A stretch of DNA of 42,641 nucleotides from Clostridia bacterium. Lineage in GTDB: Bacteria; Bacillota; Clostridia; Christensenellales; Aristaeellaceae. The position numbers were made by a program, and so were the translations under genes. The DNA lies in contig JAFZPI010000009.1 of the NCBI GenBank assembly GCA_017552615.1, forward strand, positions 1 through 42,641. Reading direction: 5' to 3'. The notes under the pieces are model-generated. The model was not told the origin of the DNA, did not search any database, and saw only the letters and a program-made list of their open reading frames with translations. Shown here one piece after another: positions 123-36,851 of this stretch (within the stretch, counting starts at the first letter, position 1; each line of letters starts with the position of its first letter).

Positions 123-170
123 CGGGGATCAGCCTCCTTTGCATGTGGCTTTGCAAGAGGTGTGAGGTGA

Positions 171-275
171 CCTCATTCGACCCTTCGGGTCACCTTCCCC
201 TAAAGGGGAAGGCTCTGTGTACACCTGTCAGGCTTCCCCTTTAGGGGAAGCTGTCACCGGAGGTGACTGATGAGG
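171..275. repeat. Family A palindromic repeat, copy 1
   Basis: About 105 bp bounded by CCTCATTC and TGATGAGG, with the inner inverted blocks CCTTCCCCTAAAGGGGAAGG and GCTTCCCCTTTAGGGGAAGC. The same layout recurs at 25907, 32222 and 34554. It encodes nothing and looks like a small MITE-like or structured RNA element. This copy sits in the untranslated leader of ileS, downstream of the T-box terminator, so it is transcribed whenever ileS is expressed. Confidence 0.85.
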
Positions 276-323
276 TCTCTTCTGTCTTCTTTGCAAGCCA
301 GTCTGTGTTTTGCCGGGGAATGG

Positions 324-2896: not shown

Positions 2897-2902
2897 CTTG
2901 TA

Positions 2903-3049
2903 CCCTCTCCGCCCCTTCGGGGCACCTCTCCCAGAGGGAGAGGCAAGGCAGTAAAGCTTCTTTTGCAAGCTTGACTCAAAGTCAAAAGCGGAGCGCATCA
3001 TCCTCTTGGCTCCCCCTCCGGGGGAGCTGGCGCGAAGCGCCTGAGAGGG
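2903..3049. repeat. Family B palindromic repeat, copy 1
   Basis: About 147 bp. The left end CCCTCTCCGCCCCTTCGGGG leads into CTCTCCCAGAGGGAGAGGC; the right end is GGCTCCCCCTCCGGGGGAGC, then GGCGCGAAGCGCC and GAGAGGG. The outer ends are inverted (CCCTCTC/GAGAGGG) and each half folds on itself. The centre differs between copies (13240, 28464). It is non-coding and lies between the tRNA terminator and the prsA-like terminator. Confidence 0.85.
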
Positions 3050-13208: not shown

Positions 13209-13239
13209 GGTAATGCGGTCCTTTCAATACTTTGGCGTA

Positions 13240-13378
13240 CCCTCTCCGCCCCTTCGGGGCACCTCTCCCAGAGGGAGAGGCAAGACAGGTGTTTACTATC
13301 GGTTCAGGCCTCGGAAAAGAGAGGCGAACGTTTCTTGGCTCCCCCTCTGGGGGAGCTGGCGCGAAGCGCCTGAGAGGG
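13240..13378. repeat. Family B palindromic repeat, copy 2
   Basis: About 139 bp, with ends nearly identical to copy 1 at 2903: CCCTCTCCGCCCCTTCGGGG and CTCTCCCAGAGGGAGAGGC on the left; GGCTCCCCCTCTGGGGGAGC, GGCGCGAAGCGCC and GAGAGGG on the right. The centre is unrelated to copy 1. It ends 4 bp before the stop codon of the GNAT gene at 13383 and lies just upstream of the GH36 start. Confidence 0.85.
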
Positions 13379-15742: not shown

Positions 15743-16921
15743 TCACCACCTCACCTGCCACCGCTCCGAGTACTCTCCTTTAACATCGTGATGATCCTGT
15801 CCAACGGTTTTCCCTTCGGCAGCCGCCTTCTCCCGCAGCAGTCGGTCGAATTCTTCCTCATCAAAGGGAATCCCGACCTCTGTCCCATCCTTCCAGGCGG
15901 AGAGATACGCCGCGTTCGAGATCGAAAGCTCGTTCAGGCCGTCCGCTCCGGGGGCAATGAGGGGTTCGCCGTGGAGGATGTGATTGGCAAAATTCTGCAG
16001 GATGCCGCGGTGAGCGGTTTCCTCGCCTTCGGGGAGGATTTCTTCCTCACCGACGGGGATGTGTGCGAGGCTCTCTTTCGACGTAAAGCGCACCTCGTCT
16101 TCATCCTGAACCAGCCACCAGAGTTTCATCTTCCCGTTTTCGAGAACCAGCTTGCCCCGGGTGCCGCTGATCTCCAGCCGGTTGGTACCGGGGTACTCGC
16201 CTGTGGAGGTGACAAACAGACCCGTCGCGCCGTTGGTATACCGGGCGAAGAGCGTGGCGTCGTCCTCCACGGCGATGCGGTGGTAGCGGGCCACGTCGCA
16301 CTGGGCGCGGAGGCTCACCGGCATGCCGCAGATCCATTGCCAGAGGTCGAGGTTGTGGGGCGCCTGGTTCAGCAGGACGCCGCCGCCTTCCCCGGCCCAG
16401 GTCGCGCGCCAGGCGGAACTGTCGTAATAGGCCTGGGTGCGGTACCAGTTGGTGATGATCCACACGCTGCGCTTGAGCTCACCCAGGACGCCGGTCTGCA
16501 CCAGCTCCCGGGCCTTGCGGAAGAGCGGGTTGGTGCGCTGATTCAGCATGATAGCATAGGTTTTCCCGGTTTCTTCGGCTGCCCGGACAGCTTCCCTGGC
16601 CCGAAAGACACTGATATCTACAGGCTTTTCGGAGAGGACATGAAGCCCCGCCCGAAGCGCCGCTGCGGCGATTTCCGCATGCAGCGGGTGCGGTGTGGCG
16701 ATGAGGATGGCGTCAGCGGTTCCGGAGGTCAGCAGTTCGTGCCAGTTGATAAAGCGCGGGACATCGGGGAAGCGTTCCGCACACCATTGCAGGCGTGATT
16801 CCTGAATGTCACAGACCGCCGCCAGCGTCAGGCCTTCCACTTGGCCGGACGCAATACACTGGGCGTGGGCGCTGCCCATATTGCCCACACCGATGACGGC
16901 AATGCGAATGCTGTCTGTCAT
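15743..16921 (-). CDS. Gfo/Idh/MocA family oxidoreductase, paralogue 1
   Basis: 392 aa. N-terminal Rossmann fold with IAVIGVGNMGSAHA (NAD(P)-binding) and the catalytic-lysine motif SEKPVD; C-terminal beta-sheet domain with GEGGGVLLNQAPHNLDLWQW, carrying the histidine used by the family. These enzymes oxidise or reduce a sugar or cyclitol hydroxyl in the cytoplasm. The start is ATG at 16921, with GGAGG 5-8 nt upstream, rather than an ATG 27 bp further out. It is the last gene of a four-gene carbohydrate cluster and closely resembles its upstream neighbour (same NWYR, AWRATWAGEGGGVLLNQ block), so the pair arose by duplication. Confidence 0.93.
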   Translation of the reverse strand: MTDSIRIAVIGVGNMGSAHAQCIASGQVEGLTLAAVCDIQESRLQWCAERFPDVPRFINWHELLTSGTADAILIATPHPLHAEIAAAALRAGLHVLSEKPVDISVFRAREAVRAAEETGKTYAIMLNQRTNPLFRKARELVQTGVLGELKRSVWIITNWYRTQAYYDSSAWRATWAGEGGGVLLNQAPHNLDLWQWICGMPVSLRAQCDVARYHRIAVEDDATLFARYTNGATGLFVTSTGEYPGTNRLEISGTRGKLVLENGKMKLWWLVQDEDEVRFTSKESLAHIPVGEEEILPEGEETAHRGILQNFANHILHGEPLIAPGADGLNELSISNAAYLSAWKDGTEVGIPFDEEEFDRLLREKAAAEGKTVGQDHHDVKGEYSERWQVRW

Positions 16922-16931
16922 AATGCCTCCG

Positions 16932-18110
16932 TTATTTGGCCCCGGCAAAACTGTTTCCGGTATCTGCCACGACCGCGGTGCCGCCGGTCTTGCGGCGGGA
17001 GGTGGCGACGCGATTCATGAGTTCATTATAATACTGGTCCTCATCGAACGGCAAAGCGACGGTCTTGCCGGTAAAGGCAGAAAGGTGCATGGCATTGGAG
17101 AGGGTCAGGCCGTTGATGCCCTCGGCGCCGCCGGCGACCAGGGGCTCGCCCCGGAGGATCGCTGCGGCCCAGCGCTGCAGCACGCCGCGGTGCTGGGGGT
17201 TCTCGCCGTCGGTCTCCGGCTCAAAGCTGTGTCCCGGGACACTTCCGAAGGGCAGTTTATTTGTCTTCATCCAGTCCTGTTCGAGGTCTTCCAGCTCATA
17301 GACCGTGAGTTTGTCTTCTTCGCAGACCAGCTGCGCACCGTCCATCTGGACCTCAAAGCGGTTTGTGCCGTGGGGGTCGCCCGTGGAGGTGATGAAGACG
17401 CCGGTGTGGCCGTCGGGCCAGGTCATCAGCGCGGTAACGTCGTCCTCGACTTCAATGTCGTGCCACTGGCCGAAGCGCATGGAAGCCTGCACGGTCGCCG
17501 GCATGCCGAGGATCCATTGGAAGAGATCCAGCTGGTGCGGGCACTGGTTCAGCAGGACGCCGCCGCCCTCTCCGGCCCATGTCGCGCGCCAGTCGCCGCT
17601 GTCATAGTAAAACTGGCTCCTGTACCAGTTGGTGATCAGCCAGTTGGCCCGGCGCACACGGCCGTACTTCCCGCTCTGCACGAGCTCCCGCATCTTACGG
17701 TAGACGCAGTTGGTGCGCTGATTGAACATCATCCCGAAAACTACGGCCGGGTGGGCTGCCGCACAGGCATTCATCTCCCGGACCTGTTTCGTGTAGACGC
17801 CTGCGGGCTTGTCGCACATAACATGGATACCCCGCTCAAGGCACGCCATCACATATTTGGGATGGTCATAATGGGGCACAGTCACGACGCATGCGTCGAT
17901 AAGTCCGCTGTCGAGCATGGCGATGGTGTCGTCAAACCGCGCGACGCTCTCCGGGAGCGTTTTCTCTGCCCATTCCAGCCGCGCAGGGTTGATGTCCGCC
18001 ACCGCCGCGAGGGTCAGCTCCACCTCTGGCCATTCCCCGAGACTGATGGAGCGCGCATAATAAGATCCCTGGTTGCCGATGCCGATGATGCCGAGACGGA
18101 TAGTAGCCAT
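16932..18110 (-). CDS. Gfo/Idh/MocA family oxidoreductase, paralogue 2
   Basis: 392 aa. Rossmann motif LGIIGIGNQGSYYA, catalytic-lysine motif CDKPAG (DKP in place of the more usual EKP), MMFNQRTN and DWRATWAGEGGGVLLNQCPH in the C-terminal domain. Oxidises or reduces a sugar-type substrate with NAD(P); the exact one is unknown. ATG at 18110 is preceded by GGAGGAGG. It lies 10 bp upstream of paralogue 1. Having two related enzymes side by side suggests sequential oxidation and reduction (for example forming and then reducing a keto-sugar) or two related substrates. Confidence 0.93.
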   Translation of the reverse strand: MATIRLGIIGIGNQGSYYARSISLGEWPEVELTLAAVADINPARLEWAEKTLPESVARFDDTIAMLDSGLIDACVVTVPHYDHPKYVMACLERGIHVMCDKPAGVYTKQVREMNACAAAHPAVVFGMMFNQRTNCVYRKMRELVQSGKYGRVRRANWLITNWYRSQFYYDSGDWRATWAGEGGGVLLNQCPHQLDLFQWILGMPATVQASMRFGQWHDIEVEDDVTALMTWPDGHTGVFITSTGDPHGTNRFEVQMDGAQLVCEEDKLTVYELEDLEQDWMKTNKLPFGSVPGHSFEPETDGENPQHRGVLQRWAAAILRGEPLVAGGAEGINGLTLSNAMHLSAFTGKTVALPFDEDQYYNELMNRVATSRRKTGGTAVVADTGNSFAGAK

Positions 18111-24585: not shown

Positions 24586-24633
24586 AAACTTGGCAGTGAA
24601 AGCTGCACATCCATGAATAAGGATCTATCGAAG

Positions 24634-25665
24634 ATGAGCAAACTCAATTTCGCCTGTGATTATCTCGAAGGTGCGCACCCGGCGATCCTGCGCCGGCTGC
24701 TCGAAACCAACCTGGTGAAGACCGACGGCTACGGCGAGGACGAATACTCTGAATCTGCCAGGGAAAAGATCCGCGTGGCCTGCGAGGCTCCGCAGGCGGA
24801 GATCCACTTTCTTGTCGGCGGGACGCAGGCCAACGCGACCGTCATCGACGGACTTCTTCGCCGTTGGCAGGGCGTGCTGGCTGCGGAGACCGGCCACATC
24901 GCGACCCATGAAGCCGGGGCTGTCGAGGCCGGGGGGCACAAGGTGCTGACCTTGCCTCAGCACAACGGCAAGCTCATGGCGTCAGACGTGAAAGCAGCTC
25001 TGGATTCCTGGAAAAACGATGACAACCGCGACCACATGGTCATGCCGGGAATGGTGTACATCTCCCAGCCCACGGAGAGCGGGACGCTCTATTCCCTCGC
25101 CGAACTGGAAGTGCTCAGCGCGGTCTGCCGCGAGGCAGGGGTGTTCCTGTACGCGGACGGGGCGCGGCTGGCTTATGCTCTGGTCTGCCCGGAGAATGAT
25201 GTGACCCTGCCGGACCTGGCCCGCCTCTGCGATGCCTTCTATATCGGCGGGACCAAGTGCGGAGCGCTCTTCGGGGAGGCGGTGGTTTTCCCGAAACCCG
25301 GGATTGCGCCGCATTTCTTCACACTGGTGAAACAGCACGGAGCTTTACTTGCGAAGGGCCGCATTGCCGGACTGCAGTTTGAGACCCTGTTCACGGACGA
25401 CCTGTATGGGCAGATCGGTCAGACTGCCATTGCGGCAGCTAGCCGTATCCGGGCCACCCTTTGGGATAAAGGTTACACGCTTGTGATGGAGAACCCCACC
25501 AACCAGATCTTTGTCCTGCTGGACAAGGAACAATACACCCGCCTGACTTCCCGAGCCATTCTGTCTTTCTGGGAGCAGCCGGACCCGGAGCACACCGTCA
25601 TGCGCATCGCCACGAGCTGGGCGACCACGGACGACGACGTGGATGCGCTAATTGCCTGCCTTTGA
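24634..25665 (+). CDS. Low-specificity threonine aldolase (beta-eliminating lyase family)
   Basis: About 343 aa. PLP enzyme, fold type I, that splits L-threonine or L-allo-threonine into glycine and acetaldehyde; relatives act on other beta-hydroxy amino acids. Motifs: FACDYLEGAHPAIL at the start, HFLVGGTQANAT (phosphate-binding), TGHIATHEAGAVEAGGHKV, LYADGARLAYAL (Asp pairing with PLP) and YIGGTKCGALFGEAVVF with the Schiff-base lysine. The ATG at 24634 has AAGGA 10 nt upstream and gives the family N-terminus; an ATG at 24613 is an alternative without a Shine-Dalgarno. It is followed 12 bp later by the TtcA-like gene, probably one operon. Confidence 0.92.
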   Translation: MSKLNFACDYLEGAHPAILRRLLETNLVKTDGYGEDEYSESAREKIRVACEAPQAEIHFLVGGTQANATVIDGLLRRWQGVLAAETGHIATHEAGAVEAGGHKVLTLPQHNGKLMASDVKAALDSWKNDDNRDHMVMPGMVYISQPTESGTLYSLAELEVLSAVCREAGVFLYADGARLAYALVCPENDVTLPDLARLCDAFYIGGTKCGALFGEAVVFPKPGIAPHFFTLVKQHGALLAKGRIAGLQFETLFTDDLYGQIGQTAIAAASRIRATLWDKGYTLVMENPTNQIFVLLDKEQYTRLTSRAILSFWEQPDPEHTVMRIATSWATTDDDVDALIACL

Positions 25666-25677
25666 GAGGGAACACCC

Positions 25678-26415
25678 GTGAAAGAAATGACACGCGATGC
25701 CGCGATCCAGCATTCGCTGGTGAAGCGCTTCCGGAAGGAAATCTGGCAGCCTTTCGTGGCGGCCTGCAAGCGCTATGCTCTGGTGCCAGAAGGCGCCAAA
25801 GTGGCGGTGTTTCTCGACGGTACCACACCCACGCTGCTGGCGGCACTGCTGCTGCAGGAACTGCACCGGCACTCCGATGTGCCGTTTGAGTTGACGGTGG
25901 TGGAGACCTCATCCACCACCGCCTGTGGCGGTGGTCCCCCTTCCCCTAAAGGGGAAGGCGATTCAACAACCTCACAAGAGCCTTCCCCTTCAGGGGAAGG
26001 TGCCCGAAGGGCGGATGAGGTTCGTCAGGAGAGGTTCCGCCTGGCTGCCCTTGCCCACGGCTGTGACCGGTACGTCGTCCCCGACTGCATGAGCGACGTG
26101 ACGGAGTTCGTCCTGACCTCCATGCTCCGGGACGGGGAAACCCGGGCGTTCTTGCCGCGGGAAAATCCGGACGAAAACGGGATGATCCTGATCCGGCCGC
26201 TGTATTGCATCGAAACGAGGGACATTCGAGCCTTCTGCCGGTATAACAACCTGCCTTTTGTTCCCCGGGAAACCGATCCCCGGCGGCGTATGGCCCGGGA
26301 ACTGATCGACAGTGTCAAAAAGGATGATCCCGACGCCGAGATCCGGGTGTTCCGCGCCGTGCATGCGGTCCATGCTGACACATTTCCTAAAACCGTTGAA
26401 TCAGAAAGCGAATGA
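25678..26415 (+). CDS. Degenerate TtcA/TilS-like protein with in-frame repeat insertion
   Basis: 245 aa. The layout follows the PP-loop tRNA-thiolation family: an N-terminal helix, VAVFLDGTTPTLLAALLLQEL where TtcA has V-A-x-S-G-G-K-D-S, GCDRYVVPDCMSDVTEFVLT where it has G-H-x-x-D-D, then ILIRPLYCIETRDIRAFC and NNLPFV. The ATP-binding SGGxDS and the metal-binding H/D pairs are lost, so normal adenylation is unlikely. Residues about 77-114 are encoded entirely by a family A repeat (25907-26020, 114 bp, 38 codons), giving a Gly/Pro/Ser-rich loop. Start is GTG at 25678 with GAGAGGG upstream. It lies between threonine aldolase and GH43, 4 bp before the latter. Confidence 0.75.
   Translation: MKEMTRDAAIQHSLVKRFRKEIWQPFVAACKRYALVPEGAKVAVFLDGTTPTLLAALLLQELHRHSDVPFELTVVETSSTTACGGGPPSPKGEGDSTTSQEPSPSGEGARRADEVRQERFRLAALAHGCDRYVVPDCMSDVTEFVLTSMLRDGETRAFLPRENPDENGMILIRPLYCIETRDIRAFCRYNNLPFVPRETDPRRRMARELIDSVKKDDPDAEIRVFRAVHAVHADTFPKTVESESE
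25907..26020. repeat. Family A palindromic repeat, copy 2, inside a coding frame
   Basis: 114 bp from CCTCATCC to GGATGAGG, with CCTTCCCCTAAAGGGGAAGG and CCTTCCCCTTCAGGGGAAGG inside. It lies wholly within the TtcA-like gene. The length is divisible by three and none of its codons in that frame is a stop, so the frame is kept. No direct target duplication is evident at the borders. Confidence 0.9.
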
Positions 26416-26419
26416 TAAT

Positions 26420-27898
26420 ATGCACGCCAATCCGATCCTGTATGCCGATTTCCCCGACCCGGACGTGATCCGCGTCGGCGAGACGTATTACCTTGCGACG
26501 ACAACCATGCACGTCCTGCCGGGCTGTGATATTCTGCGCTCGTATAACCTGTGCGACTGGGAGCTGGTCTGCCATGTCTGCCCGACTCTCGACGGCACCT
26601 CGGCGCAGCGCCTGATCGACGGCGACATCTACGGCCAGGGCATGTGGGCTCCCAGCCTGCGCTTTCATGCAGGCGTGTTTCACGTGTTTTTTGTGGCCAA
26701 CGATACAAGGCGCAGCTATCACTACACCGCTCCGGCGATCGAAGGCCCCTGGACCGAACAGCCGGTCGAGGGATTCTATCATGATCCCTCGCTGCTTTTT
26801 GATGACGACGGTCGGGTGTACATTGCCCACGGCAATCGCCGGATCCACTTGACGGAGATGAAGCCGGACCTGTCCGCGCCGATACCCGGTGGATTTGATG
26901 AGATCATCGTCCGGGACGGGTCGTCGGACGCCTTTCCGCTTGGGTATGAGGGATCGCACCTGCAGAAGATCAACGGGCGGTACTTCCTCTCCCTGATCCA
27001 CTGGCCGAAGCAGGAGAACGGCCGCCGCACGCAGGCAGTCTATTGGGCGGATAACATCCAAGGCCCCTGGCAGGGTGGCGACGTGCTCGATGACGACATG
27101 GGCTTCCGCAACCGGGGCATTGCCCAGGGCGGGCTGATCGACACGCCGGACGGCCGCTGGTTCGCGATGCTCTTCCAGGACCACGGCGCCGAGGGCCGGA
27201 TGCCTGTGCTCGTGCCGGTGCGCTGGGAGGACGGGCTGCCGGTCTTCGGGCCGGTGCCCGGGACGATCGAAACGCCCGATTCCCGTCCGGGTTACGTGTA
27301 TCGTCCCCTGGTGGGGAGTGACGACTTCTCACAGGAAAACCTTCGGGATTTCTGGCAGTGGAACCACCAGCCTGATGACAGCTTGTGGAAGCTTGATTCC
27401 GTCGCCGGGACGATGACCCTGCGCACGGGACGGGTCGTGGCGGATCTCGAGCACGCGCCGAACACGCTGACCCAGCGGACCTTCGGTCCCTGTTGCGCCT
27501 GTGAGGTGACGGTGGATGCCTCGGGTCTCGGCAACGGAGATTACGCGGGGCTATGCGCCTTGCAGGGACACTTTGCGCAGATCGCGATTTGCCGCCAGGA
27601 TGGGAAGCTGTTCCTCTCTGTCATCGCGAAGGATGATGAGCTTCGCGAGTTGGCCTGGCTTCCGCTGGAGGGCAAACAGGCGCGGTTCCGGGCGGAGTTT
27701 GATTTCACGGACATGAAGGATGAGGTCCGCTTCTTCTGGCGCACGGACGGCGATTGGCAGCCGCTCGGCCCTGCGCATCATCTGGTTTATGACCTGCATC
27801 ATTTCATGGGCGTACGGGTCGGGCTTTTCTGCTACTCCACCCGCAAGAGCGGGGGAGAAGCGGGGTTCAGGGATTTCCGGTATGAAATGATGGATTAA
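26420..27898 (+). CDS. Glycoside hydrolase family 43 (arabinofuranosidase/xylosidase type)
   Basis: About 492 aa, no signal peptide, so cytoplasmic. Five-bladed propeller (about 1-295) with the base Asp in YADFPDPDVIRV (near residue 13), the pKa-modulating Asp in GFYHDPSLLFDDDG, and the acid Glu in FPLGYEGSHLQK. A C-terminal beta-sandwich (about 320-490; DDFSQENLRDFWQWNHQPDD, FRDFRYEMMD) is the DUF1349/GH43_C2-type module common in beta-xylosidases and arabinofuranosidases. It should release terminal arabinose or xylose from short side chains; the precise subfamily cannot be fixed. ATG at 26420 is 4 bp after the TtcA-like stop; the frame is open upstream, but this start gives the family N-terminus. 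Confidence 0.93.
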   Translation: MHANPILYADFPDPDVIRVGETYYLATTTMHVLPGCDILRSYNLCDWELVCHVCPTLDGTSAQRLIDGDIYGQGMWAPSLRFHAGVFHVFFVANDTRRSYHYTAPAIEGPWTEQPVEGFYHDPSLLFDDDGRVYIAHGNRRIHLTEMKPDLSAPIPGGFDEIIVRDGSSDAFPLGYEGSHLQKINGRYFLSLIHWPKQENGRRTQAVYWADNIQGPWQGGDVLDDDMGFRNRGIAQGGLIDTPDGRWFAMLFQDHGAEGRMPVLVPVRWEDGLPVFGPVPGTIETPDSRPGYVYRPLVGSDDFSQENLRDFWQWNHQPDDSLWKLDSVAGTMTLRTGRVVADLEHAPNTLTQRTFGPCCACEVTVDASGLGNGDYAGLCALQGHFAQIAICRQDGKLFLSVIAKDDELRELAWLPLEGKQARFRAEFDFTDMKDEVRFFWRTDGDWQPLGPAHHLVYDLHHFMGVRVGLFCYSTRKSGGEAGFRDFRYEMMD

Positions 27899-32040: not shown

Positions 32041-32151
32041 GGTGATGCCTCCATTTCTTTATATTGACATTCATGGATGAATGAATGTTCGTTGCCCCTC
32101 AGTCACCGCGTCGCTGTTTCTTCGGGAATAGACGAGATGAGGAGAGTACGA

Positions 32152-32216
32152 GGTGCGGCAAGCAGCGCCCCTACAGGGATGCTGGGTTGTGTAAGGGCGC
32201 CGCTTGCTGCGCCCCA
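32152..32216. repeat. Family C palindromic repeat, copy 1
   Basis: About 65 bp. GCGGCAAGCAGCGCCCCTACA is matched in reverse by a TGTAAGGGCGCCGCTTGCTG arm, with GGGATGCTGGGTTG in between. Almost identical copies are at 34452 and 36763, at the same position relative to each LRR gene. Confidence 0.85.
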
Positions 32217-32221
32217 TCAAA

Positions 32222-32342
32222 CCTCATCCACCACCGTCTTCGGCGGCGGTTCCCCTTCCCCTAAAGGGAAAGGATTTTGGATACTTTTCTTCGCATTAAG
32301 CCTTCCCCTTTAGGGGAAGGTGGCGCGAAGCGCCGGATGAGG
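32222..32342. repeat. Family A palindromic repeat, copy 3
   Basis: 121 bp from CCTCATCC to GGATGAGG, with the inner TTCCCCTAAAGGGAAAGG and CCTTCCCCTTTAGGGGAAGG blocks. Its last base directly precedes the stop codon of the LRR gene at 32343. Nearly identical to the copy at 34554. Confidence 0.9.
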
Positions 32343-34403
32343 TCACTCCGCCTCCACGACCCACACCCTCTCTTCCTTAACCCATCCTGTCAGCCGGATG
32401 GTCCGCACATAGGCCCAGCCGTCCCGCTGTTCCAGAACGATCGCCTGCTCACAGTCCCAGACCTGACCAATTTCGTCGCCGCCTGGTGCGTCAAGGACAG
32501 GGATCGGGCTGTCATCCGGGGCGCAGAGATAAGCCAGGATACGGCTGCTGTCGCCGTTGCGCAGGAGGGTAATCTCGTCCGCGGTGAACTCTTCTTCACG
32601 GTAGATCCACCAGTAATCTTCCGGATCAAAATAATCCCGGATGTCCACATAGGCTTTTCCGTTGCTGATATCAACGTCGTATTCATCGTAACGCTCGCCT
32701 GTCGCGTTGTTAACGGCGCCGGTCAGCTTGAAAAGCGTGCTGCCCGTGGTATCCGCCTCGAGGCATTCCAGGGGGATCCAGTAGAGCTTGTCTCCCCAGC
32801 CCCAGTATCCGCCTTGTGCAATCCAATCTGATTCTTTCCATTCTTGCAGCCGTACATGCGCCGCATCGCCTTCAACGTCTTCGACCCGGACAAGGGCGTT
32901 CGCGAAAATTGTTCCCACGGGTTCGGTGTAGGCTGCGTCCGCCCAAAGGGTTTCTTTCGCCTCTCCGTTCGGGCTAACCACCCGGGCGGTATAGTTGCCG
33001 AAATAAAGTTTGCGCTCCTTCCACTCCTGGGTCGAACCGTTGTCGCCGTTGTACCAGGTGAAATCCCCCTGAACCGCGGAGCCGTACCATTCGACGGTGA
33101 GACCCGGCGGCAGGGAGAGGCGCTCCAGGCTCACGCAGGCGTAGAACGCCGAATCGGCGATCTCGGTCACGGTCAGTGGCACCGTCAGGCTCTGCAGCCG
33201 CCCGCAGCCGGCGAAAGCAAAGGATTCGATGCGTTTCAGGCCAATGGGCAGGGAAATCGTTTTCAGCGGGCTGTTCATTGAGTCGTCGTCGAACGCATAG
33301 CTGGCAATCACTTCCGTCCCGGCAGGCACATCGTAATGGGTATCGCTCTGCCCGTTCGGGTAGCGGATCAGGGTCTTGCCGTCGGTGGAGAAGAGCACGC
33401 CGTCCACGGACTTGTAGCACGGGTTCCCCTCCTCGACTTCGTAAACCCCAACGGTCACATAATATCCGACTGGCAGCTCTGCAGTATAACCTGCAGGAAT
33501 AATGATCCGGTTGAAATTTGTCCCGTAGATGGCGTCGATATCGAAGTATTCCAGTCCCTCCGGAAGTCGGAACTCGGTGCAGTATCCATAAACGATGCTT
33601 TCCGCGCCCATCATCCGCAGGCTGTCAGGGAGGATCAAGGTTGTCTCCGTATCATATCCCATCAGTTCGGACAGATCAACCCTGCCACCCGAAATGTCCC
33701 CGGGGCGGATCACCGTGTAGATGAAAGTGTGCCCTCGCCACTCGCCCTCTTCGTCTTCCTCTTCGACAAATGTCCAAGTATAATTGTCCCCGAGAATGGT
33801 CACGCCTTCACAGATTCGGACGGTATTGGTATTGCCGTCCACCTCGATCAGTTCGACTTCTTCCAGTGCGCCTGCGTCCATGTAAAGCCAGGCGACTTTG
33901 TCGTCCACGTCGGTTTCCGCATAGGCCAGGCCGCTGTCCTTGTCCGCGAGCATGACGATCACGGTGTCACCCTCATGCAGGGTACGGGCAGGGGATCCGC
34001 CAGGCGTGAAAGAAGCTTCCGCTTCCCCGGTGACCCGGCACAGCATCCGCTGGATTTCGAGATCGCTGTCATTTGGTAACTCACAGGCGCCGGGATCGAT
34101 TTTGATCCAACCTACGCGGCCGTCCCCGGTCTTTACCATGGCCCAGGTCTGCGCCTGCAGCGTTCCGCGGAGTGTGAAACTCTCCCCGGTGGGGATGGGT
34201 TCCAGGGGAAAGGCTTCGTCAAAGGGCGCAGCGAACAGCGGGACGGGTTCGTCCTCCGGCAATCCGAGGTCGGCGGCGTCGGACGGTTCCTCCCAGAAAG
34301 TGGCGCGCCGCCATATCCAGTCGTCCAGATCAAGCGCACCCGCCACCGCGGGCAGCAGGCAGATGGCCAGGGCCAGGGAAAGCCAGAAAAGGTGTTTCTT
34401 CAT
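32343..34403 (-). CDS. Secreted BspA-type leucine-rich-repeat protein with SH3-like ends, paralogue 1
   Basis: About 686 aa, signal peptide MKKHLFWLSLALAICLLPAV ending AGA. An SH3-like domain (about 60-115, FTLRGTLQAQTWAMVKTGDG...GWIKIDP), then LRR_5-type repeats (about 245-430) such as LPEGLEYFDIDAIYGT, LPIGLKRIESFAFAGCGRLQ and LTVTEIADSAFYACVSLERL, and a C-terminal SH3-like domain (about 635-680, VLDAPGGDEIGQVWDCEQAI, WAYVRTIRLTGWV). BspA-like LRR proteins bind host matrix or other surfaces; here the SH3-like ends may bind cell wall. The start at 34403 follows AAAGGAAGTG; the frame is open upstream. It lies downstream of paralogue 2 in transcription order. The stop abuts a family A repeat. 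Confidence 0.87.
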   Translation of the reverse strand: MKKHLFWLSLALAICLLPAVAGALDLDDWIWRRATFWEEPSDAADLGLPEDEPVPLFAAPFDEAFPLEPIPTGESFTLRGTLQAQTWAMVKTGDGRVGWIKIDPGACELPNDSDLEIQRMLCRVTGEAEASFTPGGSPARTLHEGDTVIVMLADKDSGLAYAETDVDDKVAWLYMDAGALEEVELIEVDGNTNTVRICEGVTILGDNYTWTFVEEEDEEGEWRGHTFIYTVIRPGDISGGRVDLSELMGYDTETTLILPDSLRMMGAESIVYGYCTEFRLPEGLEYFDIDAIYGTNFNRIIIPAGYTAELPVGYYVTVGVYEVEEGNPCYKSVDGVLFSTDGKTLIRYPNGQSDTHYDVPAGTEVIASYAFDDDSMNSPLKTISLPIGLKRIESFAFAGCGRLQSLTVPLTVTEIADSAFYACVSLERLSLPPGLTVEWYGSAVQGDFTWYNGDNGSTQEWKERKLYFGNYTARVVSPNGEAKETLWADAAYTEPVGTIFANALVRVEDVEGDAAHVRLQEWKESDWIAQGGYWGWGDKLYWIPLECLEADTTGSTLFKLTGAVNNATGERYDEYDVDISNGKAYVDIRDYFDPEDYWWIYREEEFTADEITLLRNGDSSRILAYLCAPDDSPIPVLDAPGGDEIGQVWDCEQAIVLEQRDGWAYVRTIRLTGWVKEERVWVVEAE

Positions 34404-34451
34404 AAAATAATCACTTCCTTTATTGGGGTAACGGGTGAAACAGGGGGTACC

Positions 34452-34517
34452 GGGGCGCGGCAAGCAGCGCCCCTACAGGGATGCTGGGTTGTGTAGGGGC
34501 GCCGCTTGCTGCGCCCC
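34452..34517. repeat. Family C palindromic repeat, copy 2
   Basis: About 66 bp: GGGGCGCGGCAAGCAGCGCC ... CTACA, centre GGGATGCTGGGTTG, then TGTAGGGGCGCCGCTTGCTG. It lies in the gap between the two LRR genes and could fold into a stable hairpin in the transcript. Confidence 0.88.
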
Positions 34518-34553
34518 ATCGCTGCAACCTCTTCAGTCTGTGTCCTTGTGGTA

Positions 34554-34674
34554 CCTCATCCCCCACCGCCTTCGGCGGCGGTCCCCCTTCCCCTAAAGGG
34601 GAAGGCTTTTGGATACTTTTCTTTGCATTAAGCCTTCCCCTTTAGGGGAAGGTGGCGCGAAGCGCCGGATGAGG
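34554..34674. repeat. Family A palindromic repeat, copy 4
   Basis: 121 bp, CCTCATCC to GGATGAGG, with two 20-bp TTCCCC palindromes. It ends exactly before the stop codon of the LRR gene at 34675. Apart from a few changes it equals copy 3, reflecting the segmental duplication. Confidence 0.9.
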
Positions 34675-36732
34675 TCACTCCGCCTCCACGACCCATACCA
34701 TCTCTTCCTCAACCCATCCCGTCATTCGGATGGTTCGCACATAGGCCCAGCCGTCGCGCTGTTCCAGAACGATGGCTTGCTCGCAGTCCCAAACCTGACC
34801 AATTTCGTCGCCGCCGGGGGCATCAAGGACGGGGATCGGGCTGTTGTCCGGGGAGCAGAGGTAGGCGAGGGTGCGGCTGCTGTCGCCGGTGCGCAGGAGG
34901 GTGATCTCGTCCGGGGTGAACTCTTCTTCACGATAAACCCATTCATACTCTTCCGGATCATAATGATCCTGGATGTCCACATAGGCTTTCCCGTTGGTAA
35001 TCTCAACGTCGTATTCACTGTAGCGCTCGCCTGTCGCGTTGTTGACCGCGCCGGTCAGCTCGAAGAGTGTGTTGCCCGTGGTATCCGCCAGGAGGCAGTC
35101 CAGGGCGATCCAGTACACGGTGTCACCCCATCTCCAGTCCTTGCCGGCCGGTGTTTCGTAACGGATTTCGATCACGACTCTGGCCATGTCTCCCTCGGTC
35201 GCTGTGACCCTGGTCCTCGTGTCCACCGGCACATCGTCCACATGGTAGGCGCGGGTCTTGTCCCTCCACAGCGGTACGGTCTCCTCGCCGGAAGGGCTGA
35301 CCACCCGGGCGGTATAATACCTGAACGACGTTCTCCGCTCCTCATTCCGCTCGGTCGCTCCGTTATCGCCGTTGTACCAGGTGAAGTCCGCCTGCTCCGC
35401 GTAGCCGTACCATCTGGCACTGAGGCCCGGCGGCAGGGAGAGCCGCTCCAGGCTCACGCAGGCGTAGAAGGCCGAATCGGCGATCTCGGTCACCGTCAGG
35501 GGCACCGTCAGGCTCTGCAGCCGCCCGCAACCGCCGAAGGCATAACTCTCAATGCGCTTCAGGCCGATGGGCAGGGAGATCGTCTTCAGCGGTCTGTCCA
35601 TCCAATCGCTGGAAAACGCACCGCTTCCGATCACCTCTGTCCCGGCGGGCACGTCGTAATGCGTTTCGTCCCACCTGTACGGATAGCGGATCAGCGTTTT
35701 CCCGTCGGCGGAGAACAGCACGCCGTCGATATCCCGGTAACGGGGATTCCCCTCTTCCACCTCAAACCTGCCGATCGTCACGCGATCTCCATACGGGATT
35801 TCTCCGGTGTAGCCCGCGGGAATGACCAGCCGCCCGATGTCGGTGCCATAGATGGCGTCATAATCACAGATTTCGATCCCTTCCGGAAGCCTCAGTTCAT
35901 CCAGGCTTCCGTAAACAATAGCCTCTCCACCAAGCATCCGCAGGCTGTCCGGAAGGATGAGTCGAGCAGTTTTGCCATACCCTACGAGCGAATTCAGATC
36001 AATGCCGTATTCCACAATGTCCCCAGGGCGGATCACGGTACGGCAGGATTCATACCACCACTTTTCGACAGGATCATCTTCGTCTACCAGGTAACCCCAC
36101 TCCCAGACAGAAACATCCCCGAGAATGGTTACACCCTCACAAATGCGGACTGTATAGGTGATGCCATCGGACTCGACCAGTTCGAGTTCAGCTTCCTGCA
36201 GCGCATCCGTGTCGGTGAACAGCCAGGCAATTTGGCCATTAACCTCGGTTTCCACATAGGCCGTCTTCTCACCTGCGAACATCACGATGACCGTGTCGCC
36301 CTCCTGCAGGGTACATAGCACCTGATTACCAAGACCGGCGGGAACACCTGTCTCTCGGGTAACCCAGCACAGCATCCGATCGATCTCAAGATCATCGTCG
36401 TTTGGCAGTTCACAGGTGCTGGGATCAATTTGGATCCACCCGTCGCGGCCGTCCTCGGTCTCCACCATGGCCCAGGTCTGTGCCTGGAGCGTGCCATGGA
36501 TCATGAAGCTTTCCCCGGCAGGGATGGGTTCCAGGGGAAAGGCTTCTTCAAAGGGCGCGGCGAACAGCGGGATGGGTTCGTCCTCCGCGAGACCGAGGTC
36601 GGCGGCGTCCGTCTCCTCGTCCCAGAAGTATATGTCCAGCCACTCCAAATCCTCCATGTCCAGCGCCAACGCCGCCGCGGGCAGGAGACAGATAGCAAGG
36701 GCAAGGAAAAGCCAGATCAGGTGTTTCTTCAT
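34675..36732 (-). CDS. Secreted BspA-type leucine-rich-repeat protein with SH3-like ends, paralogue 2
   Basis: 685 aa. Signal peptide MKKHLIWLFLALAICLLPAA; SH3-like domain around residues 60-115 (MIHGTLQAQTWAMVETEDG); LRR_5 repeats about 245-430, with LPIGLKRIESYAFGGCGRLQ and LTVTEIADSAFYACVSLERL; C-terminal SH3-like domain with VLDAPGGDEIGQVWDCEQAI and WVEEEMVWVVEAE. The C-terminal third is nearly identical to paralogue 1, while the region before the LRRs and the segment about 475-520 have diverged, which suggests selection on exposed parts. GAAGGAAG precedes the ATG. A promoter lies at 36852-36880, with a family C repeat in the 5' UTR. Confidence 0.88.
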   Translation of the reverse strand: MKKHLIWLFLALAICLLPAAALALDMEDLEWLDIYFWDEETDAADLGLAEDEPIPLFAAPFEEAFPLEPIPAGESFMIHGTLQAQTWAMVETEDGRDGWIQIDPSTCELPNDDDLEIDRMLCWVTRETGVPAGLGNQVLCTLQEGDTVIVMFAGEKTAYVETEVNGQIAWLFTDTDALQEAELELVESDGITYTVRICEGVTILGDVSVWEWGYLVDEDDPVEKWWYESCRTVIRPGDIVEYGIDLNSLVGYGKTARLILPDSLRMLGGEAIVYGSLDELRLPEGIEICDYDAIYGTDIGRLVIPAGYTGEIPYGDRVTIGRFEVEEGNPRYRDIDGVLFSADGKTLIRYPYRWDETHYDVPAGTEVIGSGAFSSDWMDRPLKTISLPIGLKRIESYAFGGCGRLQSLTVPLTVTEIADSAFYACVSLERLSLPPGLSARWYGYAEQADFTWYNGDNGATERNEERRTSFRYYTARVVSPSGEETVPLWRDKTRAYHVDDVPVDTRTRVTATEGDMARVVIEIRYETPAGKDWRWGDTVYWIALDCLLADTTGNTLFELTGAVNNATGERYSEYDVEITNGKAYVDIQDHYDPEEYEWVYREEEFTPDEITLLRTGDSSRTLAYLCSPDNSPIPVLDAPGGDEIGQVWDCEQAIVLEQRDGWAYVRTIRMTGWVEEEMVWVVEAE

Positions 36733-36762
36733 GAGCGAGCACTTCCTTCAATGGGGTTAACG

Positions 36763-36826
36763 GGGGGCGCGGCAAGCGGCGCCCCTACAGGGATAGGGTG
36801 GTGTAGGGGCGCTGCTTGCTGCGCCC
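36763..36826. repeat. Family C palindromic repeat, copy 3
   Basis: About 64 bp, arms GGGGCGCGGCAAGCGGCGCC and GTGTAGGGGCGCTGCTTGCT, with a shortened centre (GGGATAGGGTG). It sits in the leader of LRR paralogue 2, between its promoter and start codon. Confidence 0.85.
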
Positions 36827-36851
36827 GACTTCTCCAATTTTCTCTCCCCTG

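Follow-up and report, generated by a model that had tools for sequence, protein, structure and literature searches.

A probable recent insertion of a REP-dimer-like repeat in a loop of a clade-conserved TtcA-like pseudoenzyme of Clostridia

How can a gene carry a long palindromic repeat within its coding sequence and still be open? This question is raised by a reading frame resembling that of the tRNA thiolase TtcA in a window of 42,641 nt (the whole stretch of DNA analyzed), which is contig C22 of G000, a draft Clostridia genome of 2.03 Mb in 49 contigs that is 72.8% complete. A sequence-only reading of the window had offered two answers, namely, a decaying thiolase that tolerates insertions or a repeat family able to provide a neutral protein linker, as known for the Rickettsia palindromic elements (RPE). 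We followed up both by comparing the repeat and its host protein with their relatives; the features concerned are listed in Table 1. The closest named record carrying the host gene was CAMKAE010000101.1 (uncultured Clostridia bacterium), and Rfam returned nothing beyond two tRNAs.

Table 1. Features of the window discussed in the text, with positions counted from its first nucleotide
Feature	Position	Strand	Remarks
PLP-dependent aldolase-like gene (Pfam Beta_elim_lyase)	24613..25665	+	Upstream; ends 12 nt before the host start codon
Host ORF, TtcA-like PP-loop pseudoenzyme, 245 aa	25678..26415	+	GTG start; ORF, profile, and structure evidence
Former PP-loop SGGKDS site, now DGTTPT	25816..25833	+	Alignment columns
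Full-length palindromic repeat, 116 nt, in frame	25906..26021	+	Borders lined up with 19 other full-length copies; RNA fold
Left arm of the repeat	25906..25959	+	End ACCTCATCC 25906-25914, outer hairpin 25915-25935, inner palindrome 25939-25958
Variable central loop	25960..25979	+	Without stop in the host frame
Right arm of the repeat	25980..26021	+	Inner palindrome 25981-26000, outer hairpin GCCCGAAGGGC 26002-26012, end GGATGAGGT 26013-26021
Former GHHxxD site, now PDCMSD	26080..26097	+	Alignment columns
GH43 glycosidase gene	26420..27898	+	Downstream; begins 4 nt past the host stop codon
Further family copy	170..279	-	
Further family copy	32221..32343	+	
Further family copy	34553..34675	+	

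Both the ORF and the palindrome within it proved real, as the frame was open through the repeat and in register with its orthologues to the same C terminus. The repeat had been described as 114 bp adding exactly 38 codons. After alignment of 20 full-length copies (window copy included), whose flanks differed, we corrected this to 116 nt touching 39 codons (TSST...ADEV). The RNA fold of the window copy had an energy of -77.1 kcal/mol (z -8.8), and none of 200 shuffled sequences was equally low. The 9-nt ends ACCTCATCC and GGATGAGGT were both exact in 16 of the 20 full copies and carried one changed letter in the remainder (L047, L048, L049, and L055). Compared to the consensus of the other 19 copies, the arms of the window copy differed in 4 of 129 columns, making it the seventh closest of the 20.

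The element consists of two inverted arms, each with an outer and an inner hairpin, placed around a variable loop. This central loop measured 16 to 26 nt in the 17 of 20 full copies in which it could be delimited, and its sequence varied between copies. Like a MITE, the element has terminal inverted repeats, made up of the 9-nt ends and a longer imperfect inversion. Pairing of the outer hairpin was kept despite changing letters: stems with 4 pairs or more, G-U pairs counted, were present in 28 of 29 distinct segments compared to 15% of shuffled segments, these loci having been chosen partly for their likeness to the repeat and hence not being independent. Across many of the 20 full copies, the arms were near identical and the central loops almost wholly different, some loops resembling reverse complements of others. 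The arms may be homogenized, or the loops may turn over fast. Additionally, five copies at different loci (L062, L064, L065, L068, and L070) carried the same additional segment in one arm, within its inner palindrome, pointing to the multiplication of an altered element. A sister palindromic family with a similar layout (ends CCCTCTC/GAGAGGG, hairpins, and a variable middle) occurred twice in the window, at 2900-3049 and 13237-13378.

In the genome to which the window belongs, matches to the family merged into 43 pieces representing 41 distinct elements (L065 and L070 were each counted as two pieces), of which 20 were full length; since 40 of 88 candidate stretches were scored, 41 is a lower bound. 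Among 200 genomes of the taxonomic family (own genome included), the core pattern was found in 63, with up to 155 sites in G119, and a reversed control pattern was nearly absent from the same 200. The element itself was matched at an E value of 1e-5 in 43 of them, scoring being limited to a few candidates per genome. Within the genus, G001, G002, G009, and G010 had no site of the core pattern. Copies were located mainly outside genes. Indeed, the window copy was the only one of the 41 elements to lie in a frame that has a start codon upstream and stays free of stops for 200 nt or more on either side. In the other spanning frames, as judged by eye, either the copy stands before the probable start codon, or the frame terminates within the copy or shortly behind it. 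Several of these frames begin with a copy and continue into what we take, from the letters, to be the starts of MetG, IspE, PurB, HisC, NagB, and dUTPase-like proteins. Seven frames of at least 80 aa, which are predicted and unproven as genes, end by position where the TGA within GGATGAGG would stop them. Similarly, of four places fetched from G189 where a long frame holds the peptide, two represent a copy before ABC-permease-like and MFS-like starts and two are doubtful frames.

Two copies of the family lie at a tandem duplication in the window (32143-36850). Its gene copies, 32343-34463 and 34675-36732 on the minus strand, are 75 to 92% alike over the matched stretches, and each is adjoined by a repeat copy (at 32221 and 34553, respectively). 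A second palindrome family of 70 nt is found at all three borders of the tandem copies (32149, 34451, and 36763), and the duplication may have been mediated by repeats. Another tandem duplication, with a spacing of 1180 nt and 77 to 80% identity, is present at 16315-17732.

As to how the family moves, we considered the RAYT transposases. REPINs, which go with a RAYT transposase, consist of two inverted REPs around a variable spacer and reach high copy numbers. The family studied here is like them in its paired inverted arms, its variable spacer, and its many copies. Unlike them, it had no Y1_Tnp (RAYT) match in its own genome, an absence that is not firm in a 73%-complete draft, and none of 15 Y1 loci in relatives was flanked by this repeat on both sides (exact motifs; four stretches were cut by contig ends). 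At one Y1 locus (L241) a repeat copy lay 581 nt downstream, and several Y1 loci had lone end heptamers nearby. When four Y1 loci were checked for other palindromes, L240 was flanked on both sides by a different one, which also lay on one side of L238. Y1_Tnp was matched in 11 of 16 genomes picked for high pattern counts compared to 14 of 60 genomes of the general set; it was absent from G000, G004, and G011 despite 27, 25, and 66 pattern sites, respectively. A RAYT as the mover is thus unsupported on the present data.

Directly at the 9-nt ends there was no target duplication (mean length, 0.15 nt versus 0.26 nt in the control). However, short direct repeats lying 3 nt outside both ends were in excess, with a mean of 1.06 versus 0.46 in within-locus shuffles of 36 elements. 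In an 8 x 8 grid of offsets for the same 36 elements, the best cell was reached by 2 of 300 shuffles, and for the 20 full copies at 3 nt outside the ends, none of 2000 partner shuffles reached the observed value. Direct repeats measured 6 nt in L056 and L154 at the 3-nt offset and 7 nt in L066 at 1 nt, and the window copy had none at the 3-nt offset. This weak excess may reflect an element that is 3 nt longer at each end and has a short or eroded target duplication, or it may be a trace of repair microhomology. Because the excess was seen under these controls, we dropped the argument that the element moves without target duplication.

We then turned to the host protein. The host protein is kin in fold and sequence to the tRNA thiolases TtcA, TtuA, and NcsA; it differs from them by lacking the SGGKDS PP-loop, the CxxC motif, the third cysteine, and GHHxxD. 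The loss of SGGxDS and GHHxxD had been noted from the sequence and was borne out, and the two cysteine motifs were found to be gone as well. Pfam ATP_bind_3 and NCBIfam TtcA matched the protein below their cutoffs, and PRK10696 scored 47.7 bits against a cutoff of 272. The protein was matched in 49 of 60 genomes searched (own included). Among 30 loci whose frames were examined, 20 had all four motifs, L027 had three, and 7 had none of the four; L019 and L024 were partial frames at contig ends with the N-terminal half missing. The motif-less genes, the window gene and one each in G002, G003, G004, G006, G008, and G009, belong to a single genus, and all their frames are open. This pseudoenzyme was therefore present in 7 of 12 genomes from this genus. 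When the repeat-coded columns were excluded, a tree of 29 proteins placed the seven in one clade with a support of 100/99, the G008 protein being on a long branch.

The same 39 repeat-coded residues would be expected in orthologues if they were an old part of the protein. They were found in none of the six orthologues of the genus, which leaves the idea of an inserted repeat standing. Between the window gene and its G006 orthologue, NG86 estimates over 196 codons were dN 0.395 and dS 0.969, giving a dN/dS of 0.41 (bootstrap range, 0.28 to 0.58; 0 of 200 replicates at or above 1). The ratio was 0.34 against G009 and 0.37 against G004, and the three pairs among G006, G009, and G004 gave 0.54 to 0.69, so that all six pairs tested were below 1 (0.34 to 0.69). 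As dS is close to saturation, these values are rough and the constraint is moderate. They bear mainly on the time before the insertion. Identity to the G006 protein was 59% in the N-terminal part and 53% in the C-terminal part, with no clear faster drift behind the repeat. The proposal of a decaying thiolase is at odds with these data, since the degenerate form is open, common to 7 of 12 genomes in one clade, and below a dN/dS of 1 in every pair. Judged from these comparisons, the motif loss is old and the insertion young.

An AlphaFold model based on 38 sequences had a mean pLDDT of 84.1 and a pTM of 0.80. Values below 50 were confined to residues 79 to 102, within the repeat-coded residues 77 to 115; the C-terminal tail scored 50 to 60, and a predicted helix (residues 106 to 126) begins in the repeat-coded sequence. 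Foldseek placed the model next to the sulfurtransferase 5ztb (E value, 3.1e-09), TtuA 5gha (1.1e-08), and TilS 2e89 (8.0e-07), with NcsA also among the top matches. As modeled, the protein is a member of the PP-loop ATPase fold of the TtcA/TtuA/NcsA superfamily. The neutral linker suggested earlier is supported for the window copy only: its frame is kept, the part it encodes is mostly predicted to be disordered, and the rest of the protein is predicted to be well folded.

Alignment with the orthologues had been proposed as a way to find the empty site, but no clean one emerged, as the nearest orthologue has about 50 to 55% protein identity and the loop is strongly variable. We infer the insertion step, as the empty site is not seen in any closely related strain. 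At the insertion point, the window gene lacks the loop of its relatives, which measures about 20 aa in the nearest orthologue, and the place of this loop is occupied by the repeat. The segment that connects the second strand to the CxxC motif in intact TtcA is shortened in the pseudoenzyme clade. Two alternatives are on a par here: the insertion may have been accompanied by a local loss, or the element may have entered a loop that was already short. As the length of 116 nt is not divisible by three, some additional alteration at the junction must have accompanied the insertion for the frame to be preserved. The direct repeat GGAG (4 nt; 25902-25905 and 26028-26031) would give 126 inserted nt, exactly 42 codons; however, direct repeats of this length close to both ends are near chance level. 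As the arms of the window copy are near the consensus, the insertion probably is recent, "recent" being relative, since six other full copies are closer to the consensus.

We consider it probable (about 0.75) that a REP-dimer-like element was recently inserted at this locus and is tolerated there, in a loop of the clade-conserved TtcA-like pseudoenzyme. One of at least 41 such elements would have reached a surface loop in which the clade had already shortened the CxxC segment, and about 17 to 20 loop codons would have been lost on this occasion or been absent before. Selection would have removed outcomes that broke the frame, be it for the sake of the protein itself or because a stop of translation would harm the GH43 gene 4 nt downstream. 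Given such selection against broken outcomes, a single in-frame survivor among 41 elements is unremarkable. The 39 codons would serve mostly as a disordered linker, as the model predicts, and the mRNA would bear a very stable hairpin that ribosomes have to open. Alternatively, the gene could be an early pseudogene whose function was lost in this lineage, its in-frame state being luck after a recent insertion. In favor of this reading, 20 of 120 copy-by-frame combinations over the 20 full copies were free of stops (3 of 6 for the window copy), i.e., about 1 in 6, and about a third of the net lengths keep the frame. Additionally, part of the loop is missing, and little time may have elapsed, the arms being so close to the consensus. 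We nevertheless regard a pseudogene as unlikely, as the two flanks keep an open frame and their register across 196 codons, with a dN/dS of 0.41 against G006, the C-terminal motif is retained, and the gene is packed tightly between two genes of the same strand.

The very stable fold and the spacing of 12 and 4 nt, which suggests a single transcript, would also suit a regulatory RNA, with the hairpin modulating translation or message stability between the host gene and its GH43 neighbor. However, palindromic arms are a shared trait of the full copies, and none of the six orthologues carries the repeat; such a role seems improbable to us. Finally, the repeat could be a coding selfish element that prefers genes, like RPE. 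It is palindromic, has about the size of an RPE, and is in frame here, and the host's frame through the repeat was free of stops in 5 of the 20 full copies, window copy included. Yet the single interior copy among 41 indicates that the family does not target genes as RPE do; together with the placement of copies before likely start codons or at frame ends in the spanning frames read by eye and with the similar or doubtful places fetched from G189, it led us to reject RPE-like gene targeting, and this explanation, already disfavored, retains hardly any probability.

The clade-conserved pseudoenzyme itself, which accompanies an intact second TtcA (ttcA2), is the more lasting lead and the one most worth following. 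An intact ttcA2 was present in 6 of the 7 genomes with the pseudoenzyme: five of these proteins fell into one clade of the tree (support 100/99, together with that of G010), and the sixth, of G006, consisted of two fragments assigned by identity only. In G002, which is 66% complete, ttcA2 was not found, and G010 has ttcA2 without the pseudoenzyme. Intact TtcA proteins outside the ttcA2 clade occur in G001, G007, and G011, and the TtcA of G005 is closest to that of G011; none of these four genomes has the pseudoenzyme, so that the pseudoenzyme and the other intact type occurred together in none of the seven. In the tree, whose inner branches are mostly weak, the intact genes other than ttcA2 are not grouped together. 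This pattern, which rests on 12 related genomes and hence on few, nonindependent cases, suggests that the pseudoenzyme lives alongside ttcA2. In the genome of the window, a repeat copy (G000:C41:1943-2062) begins 10 nt behind the intact ttcA2, as counted from its last sense codon.

When the window ORFs between 20000 and 32500 were compared with the stretches fetched around the six orthologues, matches were limited to the host gene and its antisense frame. A gene for an SNF2-type helicase directly follows the pseudoenzyme gene in G006, G003, and G002 (L203, L206, and L208; Pfam was run on the G006 protein alone). This helicase had no match near the other intact TtcA genes, as far as their surroundings were fetched, so that degeneration of a TtcA in place finds no support in this neighborhood.

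A known precedent for a motif-less partner is Ctu2/Ncs2, the second subunit of the eukaryotic U34 thiolase, which passages of PMC10067955 describe as a homologue of Ctu1 without the cluster cysteines and with poorly ordered extra regions. According to this description, the pseudoenzyme is like Ctu2 in being a homologue of a catalytic subunit without cluster cysteines, in co-occurring with it, and in having an extra part that is predicted to be poorly ordered. Unlike Ctu2, it is bacterial and nearer to TtcA than to NcsA/Ctu1. By analogy, the genus could hold a bacterial counterpart of Ctu1/Ctu2, made of ttcA2 and a putative motif-less partner whose disordered loop was lengthened by 39 REP-derived codons. 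We put this forward as a doubtful idea; whether a Ctu2-like subunit exists in bacteria is directly testable.

A literature search covering few subscription papers brought up no description that we recognized of either the repeat family or the TtcA pseudoenzyme. The event itself is nevertheless a new example of insertions already known from other bacteria. In the passages of PMC3733652 on such insertions, REPs lie wholly inside ORFs in several bacteria; dimers or groups coding for 20 to 30 residues make up over half of these inserts, and some clusters code for 43 to 82. The 39 codons found here are within this range of sizes. The same source describes the GTAG and CGTC superfamilies of REPs as short palindromes, often in inverted pairs, that are mostly intergenic or near gene ends and whose ends can supply stop codons. 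Like the REP dimers described there, our family has inverted hairpin units, a variable spacer, and many copies located mainly outside genes. Unlike GTAG and CGTC REPs, it carries neither tag at its ends (ACCTCATCC/GGATGAGGT), has two hairpins per arm, and had no linked tyrosine transposase that we could find. In-frame RPE within Rickettsia genes are reviewed in PMC10969869 (see also PMC3733652), and by these partial accounts, the window copy resembles them as a palindrome of about 100 to 150 bp in frame within a gene, giving a tolerated peptide. At the level of the family, the comparison with RPE made in the sequence-only reading fails: RPE are often in frame inside ORFs, whereas here this holds for 1 of 41 elements and there is no CGTC tag, the two families being compared by description. 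We thus conclude that the family looks and behaves like a REP dimer, and we file it neither as a REPIN nor as an RPE. It adds a gut-type Clostridia family, and a REP-like family with neither the GTAG nor the CGTC tag, to the palindromic repeats found in frame, and it provides a measured contrast to RPE, in which in-frame capture is a rare by-product of a mainly intergenic repeat.
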